This document shows positions 1,829-14,438 of a DNA stretch of 47,954 nt, piece after piece. The DNA is from a virus, in IMG/VR virus record IMGVR_UViG_3300047359_000988, positions 1-47,954 of that record; one strand, 5' to 3'. The position numbers and the translations under genes were made by a program. Numbering within the stretch: the first letter of the stretch is position 1; every line of letters begins with the position of its first letter. The notes below the pieces were generated by a model. The model did not search any database. It was not told the DNA's origin and worked only from the letters and a program-made list of their open reading frames with translations.

Positions 1829-3025
1829 TTAGTATTGTGTTACGCTAATGCTACATCCGCTAGGGTTATTGCATATACTTGTCATTGTGTATGATTTTGC
1901 TGAATTGCTGTGTTGTTCTAAACTAAAGTTATATGCTGGCCCATATGTACTTGACAAGTCAATAGTTGCACTGTGTGAGCCGCCACCGTGTTGATTTACA
2001 TCAACTAGATTGTAGTTGCCTTCTATGTCAAGATCAAGATATGTTGAGCCTTGGTTTCCATTTTGCGCCACATCAACATTATTGTCGTCTCCGTCTATGT
2101 CAACATACATTGTGTGAGCACCATTTTTACGTTGTGATAAGTTTACTTCATTATCGTCGCCAATTATACCAGCGTTTAATTCGTGTGATGCCCAACAACA
2201 GTTTGCGGCTTGATCAGTTTGTGCTGAATGAAAGACATTGTTATCACCTGTAATAGCAACATATGCGTCGTGGTCGCCACCTTCGGTTGAGTCAGTAGTA
2301 CCATCTATCTGCTTGCCTTGCCATATTTTTACGTTGTTATCATCACCCGTTAGTACCAGTCTACCAAAGTTGCTTTCGCCTCCACCGCCTTGATAACCAT
2401 CTACGGTGTTGTCATTTCCTATAACAGCAATTTCTGCTTGTTCGTATTGTGATCCGTTTTGTGTTAGTGTTAGTGTATTCCTGTCGCCAGTAAGTGGTGT
2501 GTTGCCGTAGCCATACACCATATGATTGTTACCGTCTTGGTCAATAACAATAGTATTGTCGTCTCCGTTTGCTTCGACTGCAACTACGTTATCATCACCA
2601 TCTTGTGTAACTGTAATGCTTTGATCATAGTCGCCGCCATTACCAACTTCAACCGCCGCATAGTTGTCGTTGCCTGTTTGTGTAACGGCAAGCACACAAT
2701 TATTACCGTGACAGTCTAAACGTGCTTCGTTGTCGTTGCCTGTTTGAGTTGCGTTACTAATACCGTTGCCAGCAGACGTATAAACTTTTATAGCATTACC
2801 ATCACCTGTTTGGTTGTATGTTGTACTAGTATTGTTGCCACTAATTGTTGCTTTGCTAGTGCCACCTGACAGACCAGTAACTGTATTATCATCACCGTCT
2901 TGTGAGATAGTCAAGTTAGTATTGTCACCTATTTGGTTTATGTATATTTCATTAGCCATACAGGATTGGGCACCAAAGTATAATAGTATTACTAAAATTC
3001 CTAAGTGTGTTCCTGTAAGTTTCAT
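1829..3025 (-). CDS. Secreted curlin-repeat protein (CsgA/CsgB-like, large)
   Basis: The product is 398 residues with a signal peptide (about residues 1-24, ending near CMANE). The mature part is a chain of repeats of the form Q-x-G-x-x-N-x-x-x-x-x-(Q), for example NQIGDNTNLTISQDGDDN, rich in Asn, Asp and Gly. This is the amyloid-forming curlin pattern, with many more repeats than the five of enteric CsgA. It ends in SISVTQY, like the Gln-Tyr end of CsgA. Several Cys pairs (around residues 105-112 and in the second half) are unusual for curlin. The start overlaps the FecR stop by 4 nt. Expected route: Sec export, then secretion through CsgG encoded upstream. Confidence 0.85.
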   Translation of the reverse strand: MKLTGTHLGILVILLYFGAQSCMANEIYINQIGDNTNLTISQDGDDNTVTGLSGGTSKATISGNNTSTTYNQTGDGNAIKVYTSAGNGISNATQTGNDNEARLDCHGNNCVLAVTQTGNDNYAAVEVGNGGDYDQSITVTQDGDDNVVAVEANGDDNTIVIDQDGNNHMVYGYGNTPLTGDRNTLTLTQNGSQYEQAEIAVIGNDNTVDGYQGGGGESNFGRLVLTGDDNNVKIWQGKQIDGTTDSTEGGDHDAYVAITGDNNVFHSAQTDQAANCCWASHELNAGIIGDDNEVNLSQRKNGAHTMYVDIDGDDNNVDVAQNGNQGSTYLDLDIEGNYNLVDVNQHGGGSHSATIDLSSTYGPAYNFSLEQHSNSAKSYTMTSICNNPSGCSISVTQY

Positions 3026-4170
3026 TGTCCTTGCCTTATGTCTATAGCATTAGTACCGTTACCTAATCTATAATCTAAAACAGCTTCGCCTTGCTGTTCC
3101 ATGTTGATAATATATCCGCTTGCTTGAGATAGCCTTAACTGAAGATTATTAACAACACCTAAATCCGTTCTTTGTACTACCCAATTTGGGTCTTGTTTAT
3201 CTAGTGTTATTCTTGTTTTATCATCATACCCAAATTTCTGATCTGCAAAAAATTGTTCGTTTTGTTTGTCTAGTTCATTTCTAAACAATGCCGCAAGAGC
3301 TAAGTTTAATTGATCTATCATGTCGTACAATAGCTCGCCTAAATAGTAATCTGCTCCTCTTGATAATTCTGTTGCCCATATATCTTTGATGCTGTCTGTA
3401 AGTGCATCACCATCAAGTACATCTGTTTCTAAAAAATCAATATCTAAGAATTCAAACTGAGCTTTTTGTTTTTTAAGTATTTCTATTTCTTCTTCATCGT
3501 AAGGACTACGCTTTCTTAATATTAGAAGTGTTCCTATTTGATTTTCGTCTATGTCTAGTACCAATGGCTTTGACGGCTTTTGGTAACTACTTTTAATTTG
3601 TGTTGTTTGAAATGCTTGATTCATAATAACAAAACCTGTGTCGCTTTCAACACTAATTTCGCCTACTATACATGTACCGTTAGTATCACAACTAGGTAGC
3701 AATGTAACCATTGTACCACCTATTTCGTCTACAAGCATTATGAAATCTGTACCACGTACTCCGATTGTTGCACTTGGTGTTCTTATTTTAACGTTTTGTT
3801 GGTAACGTTTTGCTATTTGTCCACTAGCATATCTTACTGTGCCTAGTGACGCTTTTAAACTGATAGACCCTATATCATTAGCAGGATCATATACAAACTC
3901 ATCGATTAATAGTCTGCTATGGTCTGTGAGATCGACACGGGTGTCGTCCACAAAGTCAATACGCATCTTACCTTTTGCGGTAACCGCTGTATCCATACTT
4001 TGTACACCAACACCCGTACCTCCTTCAATAACCTGACGATTCCTTTCCAGTACACCAGAACCTTTTATTTCGCCTATAGACCCTGCATCAGAGTTGGCGA
4101 ACGCCGGCAAACTGGAAAGGAGCACACATAATGCTATGCCCGACTTAATCAGATTGTGTAATATCAACAT
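3022..4170 (-). CDS. Exported FecR-domain protein with curlin-like C-terminal tail
   Basis: A signal peptide (MLILHNLIK..., cleaved near AFANS) is followed by a FecR domain at about residues 25-190, with the typical core FVDDTRVDLTDHSRLLIDEF and TPSATIGVRGTDF. A helical middle follows, then a last 45 residues that look like curlin repeats (GNGTNAIDIRQGQ). FecR domains are periplasmic and bind surface or cell-wall partners or act in signalling. The fusion to a curlin-like tail suggests a nucleator or anchor for the neighbouring amyloid proteins (inference). The frame extends to a GTG at 4182; I prefer the ATG at 4170. Either start overlaps the preceding curlin gene (by 26 or 38 nt). Confidence 0.82.
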   Translation of the reverse strand: MLILHNLIKSGIALCVLLSSLPAFANSDAGSIGEIKGSGVLERNRQVIEGGTGVGVQSMDTAVTAKGKMRIDFVDDTRVDLTDHSRLLIDEFVYDPANDIGSISLKASLGTVRYASGQIAKRYQQNVKIRTPSATIGVRGTDFIMLVDEIGGTMVTLLPSCDTNGTCIVGEISVESDTGFVIMNQAFQTTQIKSSYQKPSKPLVLDIDENQIGTLLILRKRSPYDEEEIEILKKQKAQFEFLDIDFLETDVLDGDALTDSIKDIWATELSRGADYYLGELLYDMIDQLNLALAALFRNELDKQNEQFFADQKFGYDDKTRITLDKQDPNWVVQRTDLGVVNNLQLRLSQASGYIINMEQQGEAVLDYRLGNGTNAIDIRQGQ

Positions 4171-4849
4171 CTTGGTTATCACCGCTAAATGTAGCTTCTA
4201 TAATATTATCACCTAAACCGCTTTGTGTAATATCATAAGTGCTACCGCCGCCAGTTACATCTATATTAATAGTATGTCCGCTAACGTCTCCGTTACCGTC
4301 TACATCAATTGTAAATGTATTGCCACTTGAAGCAAGACTTGCACTGTTATCATTAACTAATGTAAGTGCAACACTTTCGCCGTCTATGTTAGATGTAATC
4401 GTGTTTCCGTCACCGTCAACAGTAAAGTTCGCTACTAAGTCTTGTGCGTCTGCTGATTCACCTAAATATATTGCAAATGCGTTTGTGTCACCATTTGTTG
4501 TTATGTTTGCCGTTACGTTTTCGCAATTGGTACCTGAAGTTTGATCGCAAGTCATAGCTACTGTATTACTATTACCGATAAAACTCCATGTTCCTGTATA
4601 CGTATTCCCTTTGATAACTGCCGCTATCGAGTTTGAATCACCTTGCTGTGTAATACTAAATGTCATATCATCGCCATCTAGTGTTACATCAGTTTGTGAT
4701 GTTCCAATCACGTTGTTAGAACCATCTTGAATGATATCTAAGTCTAAATTATCGCCAACCTGGGTGATATAGATATCATTAGCAAACGATGGAACAGTTA
4801 TTAAAAGTGATACGCATGCTACTAACATACCGTATGTTATATTTCTCAT
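4145..4849 (-). CDS. Secreted curlin-repeat protein (smaller paralogue)
   Basis: The product is 234 residues with a signal peptide to about residue 23 (SFANDIY). The mature N-terminus (IYITQVGDNLDLDIIQDGSNN) closely resembles that of the 398-residue curlin protein, so the two are paralogues. Further GxxN repeats run to the end (GDNQDVDITQSD). It lies 3 nt after csgG, whose final codons (GAG GGC) supply the ribosome site. It is a likely second curli subunit. Which of the two is major subunit and which nucleator cannot be told from sequence. Confidence 0.85.
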   Translation of the reverse strand: MRNITYGMLVACVSLLITVPSFANDIYITQVGDNLDLDIIQDGSNNVIGTSQTDVTLDGDDMTFSITQQGDSNSIAAVIKGNTYTGTWSFIGNSNTVAMTCDQTSGTNCENVTANITTNGDTNAFAIYLGESADAQDLVANFTVDGDGNTITSNIDGESVALTLVNDNSASLASSGNTFTIDVDGNGDVSGHTINIDVTGGGSTYDITQSGLGDNIIEATFSGDNQDVDITQSD

Positions 4850-4852
4850 ATT

Positions 4853-5722
4853 TTAGCCCTCTTCTGAGTCATTTAATTCCTCAGATATTTCGTTTATTGT
4901 CTCTATAGATTCTTCAGCCTCTTCTTTGAATTTCCATAAGTCCCTGCGCTCGCCCTCAAAAATAAGTTCGATAACGCCCTGTTCTACAGCTGCCCTCACA
5001 GCGTAGTTTACAGGTTCATTGACTGAAAACCCAGCTTCTGTCTCTACTAATTTAGTTCCTAAATCAAAGAACTTAAAGATATCCGCTCCGGATCTATAAC
5101 TCGCGATTGTCTTTTCGGTTGCTATACTCATTAACACTTTCCCTGTGCTAACGCTTACTAGCCTCATGACTACAGTAACAGTGTCCACGCGGTACTCTGT
5201 CTGTATGCCTAAGCCTAAATATCTTGCGCCTGCCCCACCAACAGCCGTATTACTATCGTATCCTACTACACCGCCTTCTAGTATTAACCCTGCAAATAGC
5301 AAGGGCTTCATCGGTGTAGGACCAGTGGGAAGCTCTTTCTCGTAAACTTCTCGTGTCTGCCTAATTAATTGCCTTTCTTTTATTAAATTATCCATTCCAA
5401 CACGTTCGACAACATCAAACCATTGTCCGTTGCCTACGTCTTGTAGGGCCTTAATGACCCAAACTTCGCTACCTTGTGTAACCGCACTACTTAAACTTGC
5501 TACCATATCCGAAGGTTTACGTTGACCTGTTCTATCACTAAACTGGTATACAGCTATAGTAATCTTTTGTCCGTCAACACCTGGAACGTCTTCCAATCTC
5601 TTTTGGATTGGACTAGCCTGCAATGTTGGTGATGTGGCAGTGTCCTCAAGTATTTGTAAACTTGGGTTCATTGCACACCCGCCTAACATAGCAAGTGCCA
5701 CTAAGGCTGCAAGTATTTTCAA
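4853..5722 (-). CDS. csgG: CsgG-like curli secretion channel lipoprotein
   Basis: The product is 289 residues with a lipobox LAMLGGC (Cys16) for outer-membrane lipidation. The CsgG core is clear: IAVYQFSDRTGQRKP, then SSAVTQGSEVWVIKAL, then WFDVVERVGMDNLIKERQLIR, then the barrel-forming part around GLGIQTEYRVDTVTVVMRLV. In CsgG, nine copies form the outer-membrane pore that exports curli subunits. The start is a TTG overlapping the csgF stop (TTGA), with a strong GGGGGAG ribosome site 8 nt upstream. The acidic helical tail (last about 25 residues) is longer than in enteric CsgG. Confidence 0.93.
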   Translation of the reverse strand: MKILAALVALAMLGGCAMNPSLQILEDTATSPTLQASPIQKRLEDVPGVDGQKITIAVYQFSDRTGQRKPSDMVASLSSAVTQGSEVWVIKALQDVGNGQWFDVVERVGMDNLIKERQLIRQTREVYEKELPTGPTPMKPLLFAGLILEGGVVGYDSNTAVGGAGARYLGLGIQTEYRVDTVTVVMRLVSVSTGKVLMSIATEKTIASYRSGADIFKFFDLGTKLVETEAGFSVNEPVNYAVRAAVEQGVIELIFEGERRDLWKFKEEAEESIETINEISEELNDSEEG

Positions 5723-6189
5723 AAGTTAAACTCCCCCATTCCTGGAATTGATATCTCTGTTACAGTTCCATCCTCACCAGTAATAGTAAGTGTAATGGTT
5801 CCTGTTGTTGGATCTTTTACCCAACTAATAATATTACCTTCAACTTCTGCTGTACCTGCGTTGGTACAAGTATCGCCACAATCAGCAAACATACTGTCAA
5901 CCATCTGCTTGCTAAGTGTTGCATAAATTCTACTTTCTAAGTTTCTAATAAACTTATTTAGAACACTATTTTCTAGTTCTCTTTCAAGTCTATTAGCTTC
6001 GGCTTCTGCTTCCTTTCTAAGTTCTTGCTTACGATTATGTTGTAACTGTTCTACACTTAAAACGTGTGTAGAGTAACCGTTACCATAATGAAATGCTGGA
6101 TTTTTAAATTTCCATGTTAGTTCAGTTGCGCCGGCTGGCGAAAATACAAGTACTAGTGTTAGTGCTAGTAGTTGAGTTAGTCTCTTCAT
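5719..6189 (-). CDS. csgF: CsgF-like curli assembly factor
   Basis: The product is 156 residues with a signal peptide to about residue 21. After cleavage comes TELTWKFKNPAFHYGN, matching the CsgF N-terminal segment (TxxFxNPxFGGN) that inserts into the CsgG pore. The C-terminal beta region (TLTITGEDGTVTEISIPG) also fits CsgF. The charged helical middle is longer than usual. A good GGAGAT ribosome site precedes the ATG. It is the first gene of the block and overlaps csgG by 4 nt. A late-type box lies at 6243-6249. No csgE or csgC is visible. Confidence 0.85.
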   Translation of the reverse strand: MKRLTQLLALTLVLVFSPAGATELTWKFKNPAFHYGNGYSTHVLSVEQLQHNRKQELRKEAEAEANRLERELENSVLNKFIRNLESRIYATLSKQMVDSMFADCGDTCTNAGTAEVEGNIISWVKDPTTGTITLTITGEDGTVTEISIPGMGEFNF

Positions 6190-6312: not shown

Positions 6313-7446
6313 TTAGACTAGTGTGGCTTGCATGCTCATACCACGTTGTTGTCCGTTAAGGTATAGAGCGCCTAGTTTAAATTTATCAACAGCAACAGAT
6401 AAGTCTTCAAAGTGAAGTGTTGTAATGTTGTCGCCGCTTGCTTTCATTAATAACATACTTGTGAAGTCTTGCTTTGCTTTGTAACTTGCAAATGCTACAG
6501 GAGCAATAGTTCTAGTTGTATGATTAGGGTATGAATTAGCTGCGTTGTTGATCAAACTCTCATCTGCATTAGGATATGCATACTGTAATAAACGTTTGAA
6601 TATTTGTTTTTGTTCTTGAATCATAAGTGGAGTAGGCTGTGCGCCTTCTTCAACTTTTAAGTATTGTGGATCACTTAATACATCTACAATGTTAGGTAAT
6701 GTTTTTGCACTTTGACGTGTTGACTTAAACATACTAACACTCTTAGGACATTTCTTAGGATCTATTCTACTTTCAGAACTTCTAATGTAAGTGTCTAGTG
6801 GATAGTCGTTCATTGCTGTCCAACGTCCGCCACCTTTGCCGCCTGCTGATGTTTTAACTTCAACAAGGTCATTGCCGTATTTTAAATCATAACTTGCTTT
6901 AGGATCTGTACCTGCTGTAACCTTTCTGTGGAAACATGCAATAGCAAGTTCGCCTGGTCCTGCTTCACCTGCGTTTTTACCAATTAGACCCGGATCGTTA
7001 ATCATAGCCTTAAACATTGTTCTTGCTGTTTGACTACCTTCGAACCAAGTGTCCATTGATTGTGGTGTGCCTGACTTGTCAAATATTGCTTCTGGCTTAA
7101 TGCAATTTGTTGTAGCAAACTCTTTTAAGAATGCAACTTTGTCGTTAGTAGGAATTTCTAGCTCAATAATCATTTGTGCTAGTCTGTTAACAAATTTTTC
7201 TGCGTCACTATCTGATCTAAAATACTTTGTTGAAACTCTAGTAATGCCGCCTTTACGTAGTATAGATTCTACTCTGTGTAATACACTAGCATCATCTACA
7301 CGCATAACTCTATCAGCAACCTGTTGCTGTAAGTCTTTTACTTCTTTGTCGTCATACGTATCTGAACCAACATTGACATTGGCCATCTTTTTGGCAGGTA
7401 CTTCATCACCTGGTGCTTCGACTAATTTAAAATCTTGATAACGCAT
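6313..7446 (-). CDS. Putative virion protein with capsid-targeting-like N-terminus and nuclease-like motif
   Basis: The product is 377 residues. The N-terminus MRYQDFKLVEA resembles the T4 capsid-targeting peptide that ends at a (L/I)-x-E cleavage point for the head protease. In the middle, GPGELA (E166), YDLKYGND (D187/D193) and VEVKTS (E196-x-K198) have the spacing of a PD-(D/E)XK nuclease core. Both points are readings of motifs, not proven homology. A late-type box lies 24 nt upstream inside the pcyX 3' end. An internal head protein with nuclease activity is possible; otherwise the function is unknown. Confidence 0.5.
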   Translation of the reverse strand: MRYQDFKLVEAPGDEVPAKKMANVNVGSDTYDDKEVKDLQQQVADRVMRVDDASVLHRVESILRKGGITRVSTKYFRSDSDAEKFVNRLAQMIIELEIPTNDKVAFLKEFATTNCIKPEAIFDKSGTPQSMDTWFEGSQTARTMFKAMINDPGLIGKNAGEAGPGELAIACFHRKVTAGTDPKASYDLKYGNDLVEVKTSAGGKGGGRWTAMNDYPLDTYIRSSESRIDPKKCPKSVSMFKSTRQSAKTLPNIVDVLSDPQYLKVEEGAQPTPLMIQEQKQIFKRLLQYAYPNADESLINNAANSYPNHTTRTIAPVAFASYKAKQDFTSMLLMKASGDNITTLHFEDLSVAVDKFKLGALYLNGQQRGMSMQATLV

Positions 7447-7459
7447 GTATTGTTATTCC

Positions 7460-8167
7460 CTATATAGAATATTTATCTAATTTAGGAAACAACATGTCGG
7501 TACAGAACTTGTCTACATCTGCTTCTGCAAGTCCTAGTGTTTTCATTACGTTTGCTGTGTGAGGATTTTGTTGCTGATTTTCACAGTAATAGTTTTGTGC
7601 GGCTAGTGTCATAAACTTATCACCATAACCTTCAAACTGTGGAACTTCATCGAACCATGCTTCTAAGTTTGCTATTGCTAGATCAATTATTGAAACAGCC
7701 TCTTCTTCTGTACGCACATTGCCTGCGGCAATCATACTGTCTGTGAAGATGTTAGTTGCCCATTCTGGTAACTTACGTTGCTTAGTTGGTACAAAGTCTT
7801 TAACAGCATCTTTGTAGCCTTCAACCATAGGATGATCTTCGCCACCACTACTTGCACTAAAGTCATGAAAGGCACCAGTCATTTTGTTTTTGCCTGCTAT
7901 AACATCAAACCCGTATATAGGTGCATCGTTGTCTAGCGTAGGAAAACAACATACATGCATCATCCATAAGCCTTTAGACTCACGTGCATCTACAACGTCT
8001 ATATGCGCTCTGCGTACATTTTTATTAGCCCATACTCTGTTTACCCATCCATTGTCAGGTTGGTTAAAGTCTGCTAATCCTGGTTCGTCAAATTCTGTTG
8101 CATGCTTTTCAAATATTTCAATTATTTGATCTTGGCATTCAATCAGTCTGTTCCATATAATGCTCAA
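7460..8167 (-). CDS. pcyX: Ferredoxin-dependent bilin reductase, PcyX-like
   Basis: The product is 235 residues, the usual size of viral bilin reductases. The core MMHVCCFP (His71) and PIYGFDVIAGK (Asp88) aligns with the PcyA catalytic His88 and Asp105, with the same 17-residue spacing, followed by GAFHDFSAS. The C-terminal YCENQQQN...FPKLDKY segment also fits the family. These enzymes reduce biliverdin with ferredoxin electrons; PcyX enzymes from marine viruses make phycoerythrobilin. The start overlaps the end of the heme oxygenase gene by 29 nt, so substrate supply and use are co-transcribed. Subclass PcyX rather than PebS or PcyA is inferred from the non-cyanophage context. Confidence 0.85.
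   Translation of the reverse strand: MSIIWNRLIECQDQIIEIFEKHATEFDEPGLADFNQPDNGWVNRVWANKNVRRAHIDVVDARESKGLWMMHVCCFPTLDNDAPIYGFDVIAGKNKMTGAFHDFSASSGGEDHPMVEGYKDAVKDFVPTKQRKLPEWATNIFTDSMIAAGNVRTEEEAVSIIDLAIANLEAWFDEVPQFEGYGDKFMTLAAQNYYCENQQQNPHTANVMKTLGLAEADVDKFCTDMLFPKLDKYSI
7470..7476 (-). promoter_or_regulatory. Late-type promoter box before the 377-residue gene
   Basis: The box reads ATAAATA on the minus strand (preceded by TAG). It is inside the last codons of pcyX and 24 nt before the ATG of the next gene. Confidence 0.45.
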
Positions 8168-8705
8168 TGTCTAACTCCATTAGTTCTTTAAATAGTTTTG
8201 TTGCAGAGTCAAAAACATATTTTGCTTCTTCAGCCATATCGTCATTGATCTTTGCACGGACTGTGTCCTTTAGTACAGAAGTATCTCCGTCAAACTGATA
8301 CATTCTAGCTTCGCCCGGTATACGTTTTTTAATCATTTGTCCGCCGCTTAGGTCGCCCATATGTAAAACGTATATGTGAGCCATTACTTTTGTTGGATCA
8401 GTCATAATTGATTTCATATGTTCAATGTAGTCGTTAGTGCTTTCAACTATCGGCGGTGGTAGTTGATTATTCCATAATTCTAAATAGTCTTCGTGTATTG
8501 CGTTCTTACGTCTTATTGCATGTAAATCATCTAGTAAGCCATGCGTAGTAGCAACAGCCTCTAGCAGATCGTATTTCTTGTGTTGGTTCCACAAGTATGT
8601 TGCGTAAAATTGTGGATTAATTTTTCCACTCATTAATACTTTAACAAACTCTTGGCGTTCTGCTTCTTGATGATGTTCCCATGTTAGTTCTTTTAAATTT
8701 GCCAT
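8139..8705 (-). CDS. ho1: Heme oxygenase (biliverdin-forming)
   Basis: The product is 188 residues from the ATG at 8705, one base after the clpS stop; the frame also reaches a TTG at 8723, which would overlap clpS. The proximal-heme-ligand region WEHHQEAE (His12) and the distal helix LHMGDLSGGQMIKK are diagnostic of heme oxygenase. It opens heme to biliverdin IX-alpha, CO and iron using ferredoxin electrons. Its direct neighbour pcyX uses the biliverdin. A release of heme iron for the infected cell is an alternative benefit. Confidence 0.92.
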   Translation of the reverse strand: MANLKELTWEHHQEAERQEFVKVLMSGKINPQFYATYLWNQHKKYDLLEAVATTHGLLDDLHAIRRKNAIHEDYLELWNNQLPPPIVESTNDYIEHMKSIMTDPTKVMAHIYVLHMGDLSGGQMIKKRIPGEARMYQFDGDTSVLKDTVRAKINDDMAEEAKYVFDSATKLFKELMELDIEHYMEQTD

Positions 8706-8706
8706 T

Positions 8707-9009
8707 TTATCCGTTTTCTTCAACTTTTACTTGCAGAGGGAATCCCTGGTTTCTGCTAAGTGTAGTTGCTTCAGTTGCTTTTACTTCAGCGATCTCGTAA
8801 GAGTAAACTCCTACAATGCCACTTCCTTCTGTATGTATCGTCATTGTTATTTCTTCTGCTGAAGCCTGGCTGTGTTTGAATACAGATATCAATAATGAAA
8901 CTACCCATTCCATTGGCGTTGCATCATCATTAAGAAATACTACCTTGTACTTACTAGGCTTCTCAATTTCTTGTTTTATTTTTTCATCAAGTTGTACATC
9001 TGTTGACAT
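8707..9009 (-). CDS. clpS: ClpS, N-end-rule adaptor of the ClpAP protease
   Basis: The product is 100 residues. It contains the ClpS signature YKVVFLNDDATPMEWVV, then IHTEGSGIVGVYSYEIAE and a C-terminal PLQVKVEE strand. ClpS binds N-degron residues and delivers proteins to ClpA, while blocking other ClpA substrates. The flexible N-terminal tail (about 20 residues) that engages ClpA is present. It lies between hsp20 and heme oxygenase in one transcript. A phage copy could redirect host proteolysis during infection (inference). Confidence 0.92.
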   Translation of the reverse strand: MSTDVQLDEKIKQEIEKPSKYKVVFLNDDATPMEWVVSLLISVFKHSQASAEEITMTIHTEGSGIVGVYSYEIAEVKATEATTLSRNQGFPLQVKVEENG

Positions 9010-9058: not shown

Positions 9059-9523
9059 TTACTTTTCAGCAACTTCACCATCAATTGTAAGACCTTCATT
9101 GATCTTAATTTTCTTTGGTTGTAGTTCCTCAGGAACTTCACGCTTTAGATGAATGTTAAGCATACCTAGTTGTAGGCTTGCATCAACTACTTCAACGTGA
9201 TCTGCAAGTGTAAACTCTCTACGGAAGTTGCGTCCTGCAATTCCTTTGTGTAGATAATTTACATCTTCGTCTCCTTTAGGAGTAGTACCTTCAATAGTAA
9301 GGATATTCTTTTCCTGTTCAATTGAAAGGTTGTCCATACCAAAGCCAGCAACAGCCAACGAGATCATATACTCGTCATCGTTTACTTGTGCAATGTTATA
9401 TGGGGGATACCCGTTTCCATTTGGACTGTTTGCAAACTGTCTTTCAAGTTCATTAAACATTCTATCAAAGCCAATAGTAGCTCTGTGGAAGTTAGGTAGG
9501 TCTAGAGTTGTTAGTCTTGTCAT
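9059..9523 (-). CDS. hsp20: Small heat-shock protein Hsp20 (IbpA-like)
   Basis: The product is 154 residues. The alpha-crystallin domain runs from about residue 40 to 135 (YPPYNIAQVNDDEYMISLAVAGF at the start, GMLNIHLKR carrying the G-x-L motif at the end), followed by a short tail with KKIKI, the I-x-I type motif for oligomer contacts. It holds unfolded proteins for refolding and is a common gene of T4-like marine phages. It is preceded by a leader shared with groEL and a late-type box. Confidence 0.93.
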   Translation of the reverse strand: MTRLTTLDLPNFHRATIGFDRMFNELERQFANSPNGNGYPPYNIAQVNDDEYMISLAVAGFGMDNLSIEQEKNILTIEGTTPKGDEDVNYLHKGIAGRNFRREFTLADHVEVVDASLQLGMLNIHLKREVPEELQPKKIKINEGLTIDGEVAEK

Positions 9524-9630: not shown

Positions 9631-11294
<1,664 letters not shown>

Positions 11295-11308
11295 ATTAGG
11301 CGTCCTAG

Positions 11309-11596
11309 TTAGTTAAGAACAGCGATAACTTCGCGTTCTGTAATAGTTGTGTATTTCACATCTGATATTTCATACGATTCACCTGTGCCAGGGTTGACTA
11401 ATATTCTATCGCCAACACTAACTTCAGGTACAATAAAGTTACCTCTATCATCGTGTGCTCCTGGGCCAACAGCTAAAACTTCAGCTTCCATAATAGCATC
11501 GGGTTGAGATTTGGCAATAAAAATACCGCCTGCTGTTTGCTCATCTGGTTCGTCTACCTTGATAATTATCTTATCAAGAATTGGTCTTAAGTTCAT
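11309..11596 (-). CDS. groES: GroES co-chaperonin
   Basis: The product is 95 residues, the standard length. It begins NLRPILDKIIIKVDEPDEQTAGG (mobile-loop region at about 16-32), then VGPGAHDDRG and the C-terminal REVIAVLN. It caps the GroEL ring. It is first in the pair groES-groEL, with a consensus sigma-70-like promoter directly upstream (11621-11649). Confidence 0.96.
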   Translation of the reverse strand: MNLRPILDKIIIKVDEPDEQTAGGIFIAKSQPDAIMEAEVLAVGPGAHDDRGNFIVPEVSVGDRILVNPGTGESYEISDVKYTTITEREVIAVLN

Positions 11597-13349: not shown

Positions 13350-14438
13350 TTATTTTCCTATGGTTGCAGACTCATAAACTGAATTATGAGTTTGCGTACA
13401 ACGAACGAACGTTGTACATTTTGCTAGTTGTTTTAGTTTCATTGCACCTGCATAGGTACATGTACTACGCACACCTCCAAGGATCTCTTGCACCGTTCGG
13501 GCAACTTCTCCTCTATACGGCACTAACACTGTGCGTCCTTCTGATGAACGATAATCTTTCAATCCACCAAAATGTTTGTTGTTTGCACTAGCACTACTCA
13601 TTCCGTAGAATTGTACAAAACTTTTTATTTCTGTCACACCAATTTCTTGTGTGTTATACTCTTTTGTAATTACCTTGCCGCCACCTTCGTCATGTCCAGC
13701 AAGCATGCCTCCAAGCATAACGAAGTCTGCGCCTCCTGCGAATGCCTTAGCAACGTCTCCAGGAGTACTACATCCGCCATCAGCGATGATATGTCCGCCA
13801 AGGCCATGAGCAGCATCAGCACACTCAATAACAGCACTAAGCTGAGGATAACCAACACCAGTTTGAATACGAGTCGTGCAAACGCTCCCAGGACCGATGC
13901 CCACTTTAACAATATCTGCTCCACTTAAAATTAACTCCTCTGTCATTTCTCTTGTTACTACATTACCTGCTATAATTACTAATTTTGGAAACTGATCACG
14001 CACCTTACGTACTCTTGCCGCAAAGTGATCTGAGTAACCATTTGCAATATCCATACATACATATTTTAAGTTATCGTATACATTTGCTTGTACATTAACT
14101 AACTTTAAAAAGTCATCATCACTTGTACCAATACTCATAGCAACATTGTTTGTACGCTCTGGTATGTCACTATTAAAGTATTCTGTAAGTTGTTCTACTG
14201 TGTATGTTTTAACTAGGCATGTAAAGATGTTGCCTTCTGCTAGTTTATCAGCCATTTCAAAAGTGCCAACACCATCCATGTTACTTGCCATGATTGGAAT
14301 GCCTTCATAATCAAGTTTACTGTGTCTAAATTCAAACTTACGATCTAGTTTAACTTGACTACGACTTTTAAGTGTACTACGCTTTGGACGTATCAGTACA
14401 TCCTTGTAATCTAGTTTAATATCTTCTTCGATACGCAT
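13350..14438 (-). CDS. guaC: GMP reductase
   Basis: The product is 362 residues (E. coli GuaC 347). It starts [20 protein letters not shown] as GuaC does. It has the catalytic loop [11 protein letters not shown] with Cys187 (E. coli Cys186) and the GuaC-specific [12 protein letters not shown] and VPYRG. There are no CBS domains, unlike most IMP dehydrogenases. It converts GMP to IMP with NADPH, feeding adenine nucleotide synthesis; this suits an AT-rich genome together with nrdA/B and prs. The start overlaps the stop of the oxygenase gene (TAATG). Confidence 0.92.

Follow-up and report, generated by a model that had tools for sequence, protein, structure and literature searches.

The window analyzed here is the whole 47,954-base stretch of a linear IMG/VR virus record, which belongs to a T4-like aquatic phage. 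A tightly packed group of genes on its minus strand runs in the order hsp20, clpS, heme oxygenase (HO) and pcyX. The features of this region are as follows.

9059..9523, minus strand: hsp20, a small heat-shock protein that opens the conserved block, 49 bases before clpS (PF00011, 61.5 bits; phrog_432).
8707..9009, minus strand: clpS, the N-recognin adaptor of the Clp protease (PF02617, 99.2 bits; matches to ClpS structures in the PDB; NDD motif and histidine kept).
8139..8705, minus strand: heme oxygenase of the canonical alpha type, with proximal His12 and GDLSGGQ (PF01126, 70.4 bits; matches to HO structures in the PDB; alignment).
7460..8167, minus strand: pcyX, a ferredoxin-dependent bilin reductase with Asp57, His71 and Asp88 (PF05996, 57.1 bits; 5owg, E 8.3e-80; tree; residues).
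6313..7446, minus strand: orf377, 377 amino acids, directly downstream of pcyX and outside the bilin route (N-terminus like a capsid-targeting sequence; residues like those of PD-(D/E)XK nucleases).
9631..11596, minus strand: groEL and groES, just upstream of the block and variable among relatives (PF00118, PF00166; groEL in 9 of 80 loci).

In a Pfam profile search of the window, all four families of the block scored far above their cut-offs (Fe_bilin_red 31, Heme_oxygenase 23, ClpS 23 and HSP20 20.8 bits), which bears out the initial annotation in placing a heme oxygenase and a bilin reductase here with clpS and hsp20. The HO gene most likely starts at ATG 8705 (MANLKELTWEHH...), 1 base past the clpS stop, rather than at an upstream TTG, since its relatives begin likewise in the alignment. 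The pcyX gene starts at TTG 8167, within the 3′ end of the HO gene, with an overlap of 29 bases; this start is backed by homologues beginning with MSxIW. The four genes very likely form a single, co-transcribed phage operon. Two T4 late promoter sequences (TATAAATA) occur in the window, a number not above chance, and none lies at the operon. Further upstream of the block are groEL, groES, genes for DUF2490, DUF401, an IMPDH/GMP-reductase-like protein, a 2OG-Fe(II) oxygenase and bS21, while orf377, csgF, csgG and genes for a FecR-like and a curlin-repeat protein lie downstream. The IMPDH/GMP-reductase-like gene (13350-14438) is a regular upstream neighbor of the cassette in relatives as well. 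As the record is a linear fragment of 47,954 bases, the absence of a gene from the window says little about the whole genome.

PcyX relatives are encoded on at least 586 IMG/VR stretches, a redundant set of overlapping contigs. The operon context with clpS and hsp20 proposed in the initial annotation proved to be fixed, all four genes occurring together in 81 of 90 loci. The tightest pair is clpS-HO, with an overlap or a gap of at most 5 bases in 73 of 84 loci; the same spacing was found between HO and pcyX in 46 of 84, and in many loci a Trp_halogenase-like gene, a carbon-nitrogen hydrolase or other genes separate these two. The intervening Trp_halogenase-family gene (PF04820) was seen in about 20 of 80 loci, for example at L034:8499-9995. 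Gene clustering over 80 loci showed a constant four-gene core with variable flanks, groEL, groES, DnaK or a 2OG oxygenase standing before it and several unrelated proteins after it. Even in L140, whose PcyX is 38% identical, the gene order can be recognized, with csgF and csgG behind it. When loci were anchored on ClpS, HO and PcyX were present in 84 of the 86 with room downstream, a sample biased by ClpS queries that were drawn mostly from HO-PcyX loci.

Two contigs (L141 and L142) carry hsp20-clpS without HO-PcyX and have a ClpP-like gene nearby, and the Pelagibacter phage Mosig has HO-PcyX with no clpS beside the pair. The block is thus old and either selected or vertically inherited, and its two halves are separable, as these cases and fragments with pcyX only indicate. 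On five such fragments (L048, L050, L051, L058 and L059), pcyX stands without HO among other neighbors, such as a DNA polymerase gene. Contigs of metagenome-assembled genomes (MAGs) whose PcyX is 65-73% identical have this phage block too, and we read them as phage contigs binned with bacteria. Cassettes of the clpS-HO-pcyX type were also observed on jumbo-size contigs, namely L192, L196 and L307 (278-365 kb) and L088 (335 kb, in a Neomarinimicrobiota MAG).

The reductase is a member of the ferredoxin-dependent bilin reductases (FDBRs), scoring 57.1 bits against the PF05996 cut-off of 31. Its closest solved relative is PcyX_EBK42635 (5owg), with 52% identity and an E-value of 8.3e-80, whereas PcyA structures matched at 2.6e-12 or weaker. 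In a quick tree of 44 FDBRs, with a very long branch to the PebS outgroup, the phage PcyX sequences formed one clade (SH-aLRT 98) that joins alphaproteobacterial PcyA (99) and stands apart from cyanobacterial and cyanophage PcyA and from PebS. The grouping of alphaproteobacterial PcyA with PcyX corresponds to the published AX clade (PMC10151467). His71 and Asp88, the residues already singled out in the initial annotation, are the equivalents of PcyA His88 and Asp105 and are invariant across all 78 phage PcyX sequences. A third site, not noted in the initial annotation, is the diagnostic one: the PcyA glutamate (Glu76) is replaced by Asp57 in the window, and this position holds an aspartate in 77 of 78 phage PcyX and a glutamate in 28 of 28 PcyA. 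From the alignment to 5owg, Asp57 is likely the equivalent of Asp55, published as a PcyX-specific catalytic residue (PMC11480375). By its sequence, the window reductase is a PcyX on a PcyX branch of its own, and its predicted activity, based on characterized relatives, would be the conversion of biliverdin into phycoerythrobilin. A divergent pair was noted at L140:7188-8427, where GTLNGGQ stands in place of GDLSGGQ in the HO and an asparagine in place of the aspartate at the PcyX site; its activity may differ.

Regarding the heme oxygenase, the PF01126 and PDB matches and the alignment assign it to the family, with the proximal histidine and GDLSGGQ as in canonical enzymes, and its activity is likewise predicted from characterized relatives. 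Together, the two genes would encode the route from heme to a reduced bilin suggested in the initial annotation. The ClpS domain is present with the NDD pocket motif and the conserved histidine, which have recognized roles in ClpS. The closest solved structures are 4yjm (ClpS 2) and 3dnj (ClpS), which are Agrobacterium and Caulobacter proteins, respectively. From its domain and motifs the protein would be an N-recognin, with putative binding of N-degrons and ClpA.

The combination of HO and PcyX is a known marine-phage cassette (PMC11480375), as the initial annotation had stated for marine viruses. The hemO-pcyX genes of marine phages (5owg, Mosig), whose two PcyX are 85% identical to each other, share with the window the order HO then PcyX, 52% identity and the same catalytic residues. 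In contrast to both, the window PcyX lies on a separate branch and has hsp20 and clpS upstream, where Mosig has 2OG-Fe(II) oxygenase genes. The hemO-pcyA/X-valaS cassette (PMC11480375) of freshwater phage CB_2 covers the same two heme-catabolic steps, and alaS is found in some relatives of the window; however, CB_2 encodes a true PcyA without the PcyX-specific aspartate, whereas this aspartate is present in the window and alaS was not found on the fragment. Cyanophage PebS and PcyA are also FDBRs serving phage-borne bilin synthesis, but cyanophage PcyA is only 21-26% identical to the window PcyX, falls in another clade and has a glutamate at the PcyA site, and PebS is more distant still. Pelagimyophages with curli genes (PMC7029224) have csgF, csgG, S21 and T4-like gene content in common with the window, while the main text of that paper mentions no Hsp20 or bilin gene. 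What is new here is therefore the fixed hsp20-clpS context and the separate PcyX branch, the HO-PcyX enzyme pair itself being already known.

The phycoerythrobilin pathway has been called enigmatic in viruses whose hosts are thought not to use phycobilins (PMC11480375). The reading we favor, with a probability of about 0.6, is deliberate phycoerythrobilin synthesis, in which the hsp20-clpS-HO-pcyX operon was selected for the bilin itself, made in a probably proteobacterial host. HO would open heme to yield biliverdin IX-alpha, CO and iron, and PcyX would reduce biliverdin by four electrons to phycoerythrobilin, a pink pigment; ClpS and Hsp20 may merely share the transcript. Ferredoxin would be supplied by the host, as no Fer2 ferredoxin gene was found in the window. 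A phage ferredoxin as dedicated electron donor was rejected, since one was found in Mosig only, together with one match in a bacterial bin (G063). A 5-ALA synthase gene (alaS) was detected in 7 of 50 fragmentary relatives at about 570 bits, far over the cut-off, and a valaS-hemO-pcyX cassette has been published (PMC11480375). Both point to extra tetrapyrrole and favor bilin synthesis over iron release, because refilling the heme route while opening heme is sensible if the bilin is wanted and makes little sense if iron alone is. Against this reading, most records, nearly all of them fragments, have no detected alaS or ferredoxin gene, pcyX occurs without HO on the five fragments, and no bilin acceptor was found in the window. 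Ferrochelatase (PF00762) is absent from the cassette family, and a whole-record search of Mosig (MT647606.1) gave no PF00762 match for QOI69023.1, which is annotated as ferrochelatase beside HO-PcyX.

Removal of heme for its iron is unlikely, although it draws on the gene content of the window, which encodes a class Ia ribonucleotide reductase and a 2OG-Fe(II) oxygenase. HO would free host heme iron for these phage enzymes, a supply role discussed in the literature (PMC11480375), and PcyX would just clear biliverdin. However, the 5-ALA synthase of some relatives would replenish heme, a dedicated four-electron reductase is a costly way to dispose of biliverdin, and HO is absent from the five pcyX-only fragments. 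The links to protein turnover and heme-iron recycling put forward in the initial annotation stay conjectural, and iron release as the purpose fits poorly with relatives that encode 5-ALA synthase.

In another reading, modeled on what has been proposed for PebS cyanophages, the pathway would serve light harvesting by a cyanobacterial host. NrdA is closest to cyanophages (72-74%), which counts for such a host and against a proteobacterial one. On the other side, about 750 bits were obtained for the window GroEL against E. coli-type GroEL and 528 against chloroplast-type Cpn60B1, the solved structures nearest to the window ClpS come from Agrobacterium and Caulobacter, the SAR11 phage Mosig carries the same HO-PcyX pair, published gp13 trees group such contigs with pelagiphages (PMC11480375), and curli genes and S21 also occur in pelagimyophages (PMC7029224). 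The host is likely proteobacterial and probably not an ordinary cyanobacterium. The window holds no phycobiliprotein gene, as the initial annotation had it, and no GAF gene; in some 50 cassette-bearing records, no phycobiliprotein was found above the cut-off, nor was a GAF domain. The gene psbA is absent from 50 such records, but excluding a cyanobacterial host on this ground is a weak argument that we set aside, because some T4-like cyanophages, one cluster of them described, lack psbA (PMC10665884). Placement of the phage reductases in a PcyX clade, the outcome of the tree proposed as a check in the initial annotation, removes them from cyanophage PcyA and PebS, and GroEL is not of the cyanobacterial or plastid type. 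Cyanobacteria make 5-ALA by the C5 route, whereas relatives of the window encode alaS. Taken with the psbA count of 0 in 50, these observations make light harvesting very unlikely.

If phycoerythrobilin is made deliberately, a partner for it may be sought among phage proteins. A GAF sensor or a phycobilisome gene close to the cassette was rejected as a candidate, since PF00502 and GAF searches of 49 cassette records gave nothing above cut-off. The bilin-binding GAF sensor suggested in the initial annotation was therefore not recovered, and a different candidate partner is a set of phycobiliprotein-like tail repeats in relatives. PF00502 gave sub-threshold matches inside giant proteins of the larger contigs. 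One tail-type protein of 3,225 residues, encoded on a 278-kb contig that carries the cassette, reached 27.6 bits over the whole protein against a cut-off of 22.2, and it contains carbohydrate-binding repeats and six repeats with C-x-R-D. A profile (A7) was built from 13 repeats, some of them taken from cassette contigs. It matched phycocyanin alpha in the PDB (E 9.2e-5), and its best 60 matches, in which the alignment runs across the CxRD site, were nearly all phycobiliproteins or smURFP. In A7 the Cys and Asp are invariant and the Arg nearly so; among 62 repeats of cassette phages, Cys is kept in 87%, Arg in 92% and Asp in 95% (of 61). In phycobiliproteins, these three residues contact the bilin. 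An AlphaFold2 model from 20 natural repeats (pLDDT 77.7, pTM 0.74) folds into five helices. Foldseek placed only phycobiliproteins and the related bilin-binding domain of ApcE among its 42 best matches, with probabilities mostly of at least 0.9 and TM-scores up to 0.72, but with E-values of 0.24 or worse. This likeness in sequence and fold fits a phycobiliprotein, though it extends over about 100 residues only and the Foldseek E-values are weak.

A7 matched in 28 of 49 cassette-bearing records and in 15 of the 18 of at least 95 kb. In L008, the closest of the long relatives of the window, A7 matched five times at some 40 to 50 kb downstream of the cassette; no match was found in Mosig or in the window, which covers 7.4 kb downstream of the cassette. 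A consensus repeat was found in 408 records of the phage collection; one of these is a marine single-cell virus and the others are cyanophages. A strict tie of the repeats to bilin genes or to cyanophages was ruled out, as an FDBR occurs in only 4 of 47 uncultured contigs that had been selected for carrying the repeat, and neither psbA nor HO nor an FDBR showed up in 13 of them along the 40 to 137 kb examined. The CxRD repeat is thus a widespread tail module of T4-like aquatic phages that resembles a phycobiliprotein domain, and it is a possible bilin acceptor. Repeat-bearing giant tail-type proteins were located at L343:3243-12920 (minus strand), L344:2208-11516 (minus strand) and in L353-L372, and in cyanophages such as S-PM2 (L347). 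A limited literature search returned no paper on this repeat, which is no proof of novelty.

A stronger proposal holds that the bilin sits on the virion: CxRD repeats of giant tail proteins would bind phycoerythrobilin, and the phage of a bilin-less host must therefore bring HO and PcyX. The 27.6-bit PF00502 score, the A7 matches, the modeled fold, the conserved Cys, Arg and Asp and the apparent co-occurrence with the cassette speak for it. We nevertheless regard it as a long shot, given the missing repeat in the window fragment and in Mosig, the scarcity of FDBRs and the 13 bare contigs among repeat carriers, the poor Foldseek E-values and the partial seeding of A7 from cassette contigs. Bilin binding by the tail repeats, if real, would give phycobiliprotein-like domains a role in virus particles. 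The clpS/hsp20 link and the candidate tail acceptor turn the enigma of viral phycoerythrobilin into specific, testable questions.

Control of tetrapyrrole flux, in which phage ClpS would change how Clp degrades the host enzyme that forms 5-ALA and HO would remove feedback heme, raising bilin output, has the slimmest prospects; to our knowledge, alphaproteobacterial ALA synthase has not been reported as a substrate of ClpS. The idea, suggested by clpS-HO being the tightest pair and by analogy with Salmonella and chloroplasts, where the ALA-forming enzyme GluTR is a heme-regulated Clp substrate and, in chloroplasts, interacts with ClpS1 (PMC7966870), is countered by Mosig, with HO-PcyX and no adjacent clpS, and by L141 and L142, whose hsp20-clpS without HO-PcyX near a ClpP-like gene implies that the link may be positional.

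Two other neighbors of the operon deserve mention. The gene behind pcyX starts with a sequence like MRYxDFKLVE in 63 of 80 loci, with differing bodies, and this N-terminus resembles the T4 capsid-targeting sequence. Members of the orf377 family retain E, D and ExK as in PD-(D/E)XK nucleases, and the product is possibly an injected nuclease, as judged from these motifs; its AlphaFold2 model was poor and gave no usable fold match. Further downstream, positions 1829-6189 of the window hold csgF, csgG, FecR-like and curlin-repeat genes. A curli module is known from pelagimyophages, where the fiber subunit was reported missing (PMC7029224), and the curlin-repeat protein of the window may be that missing subunit.
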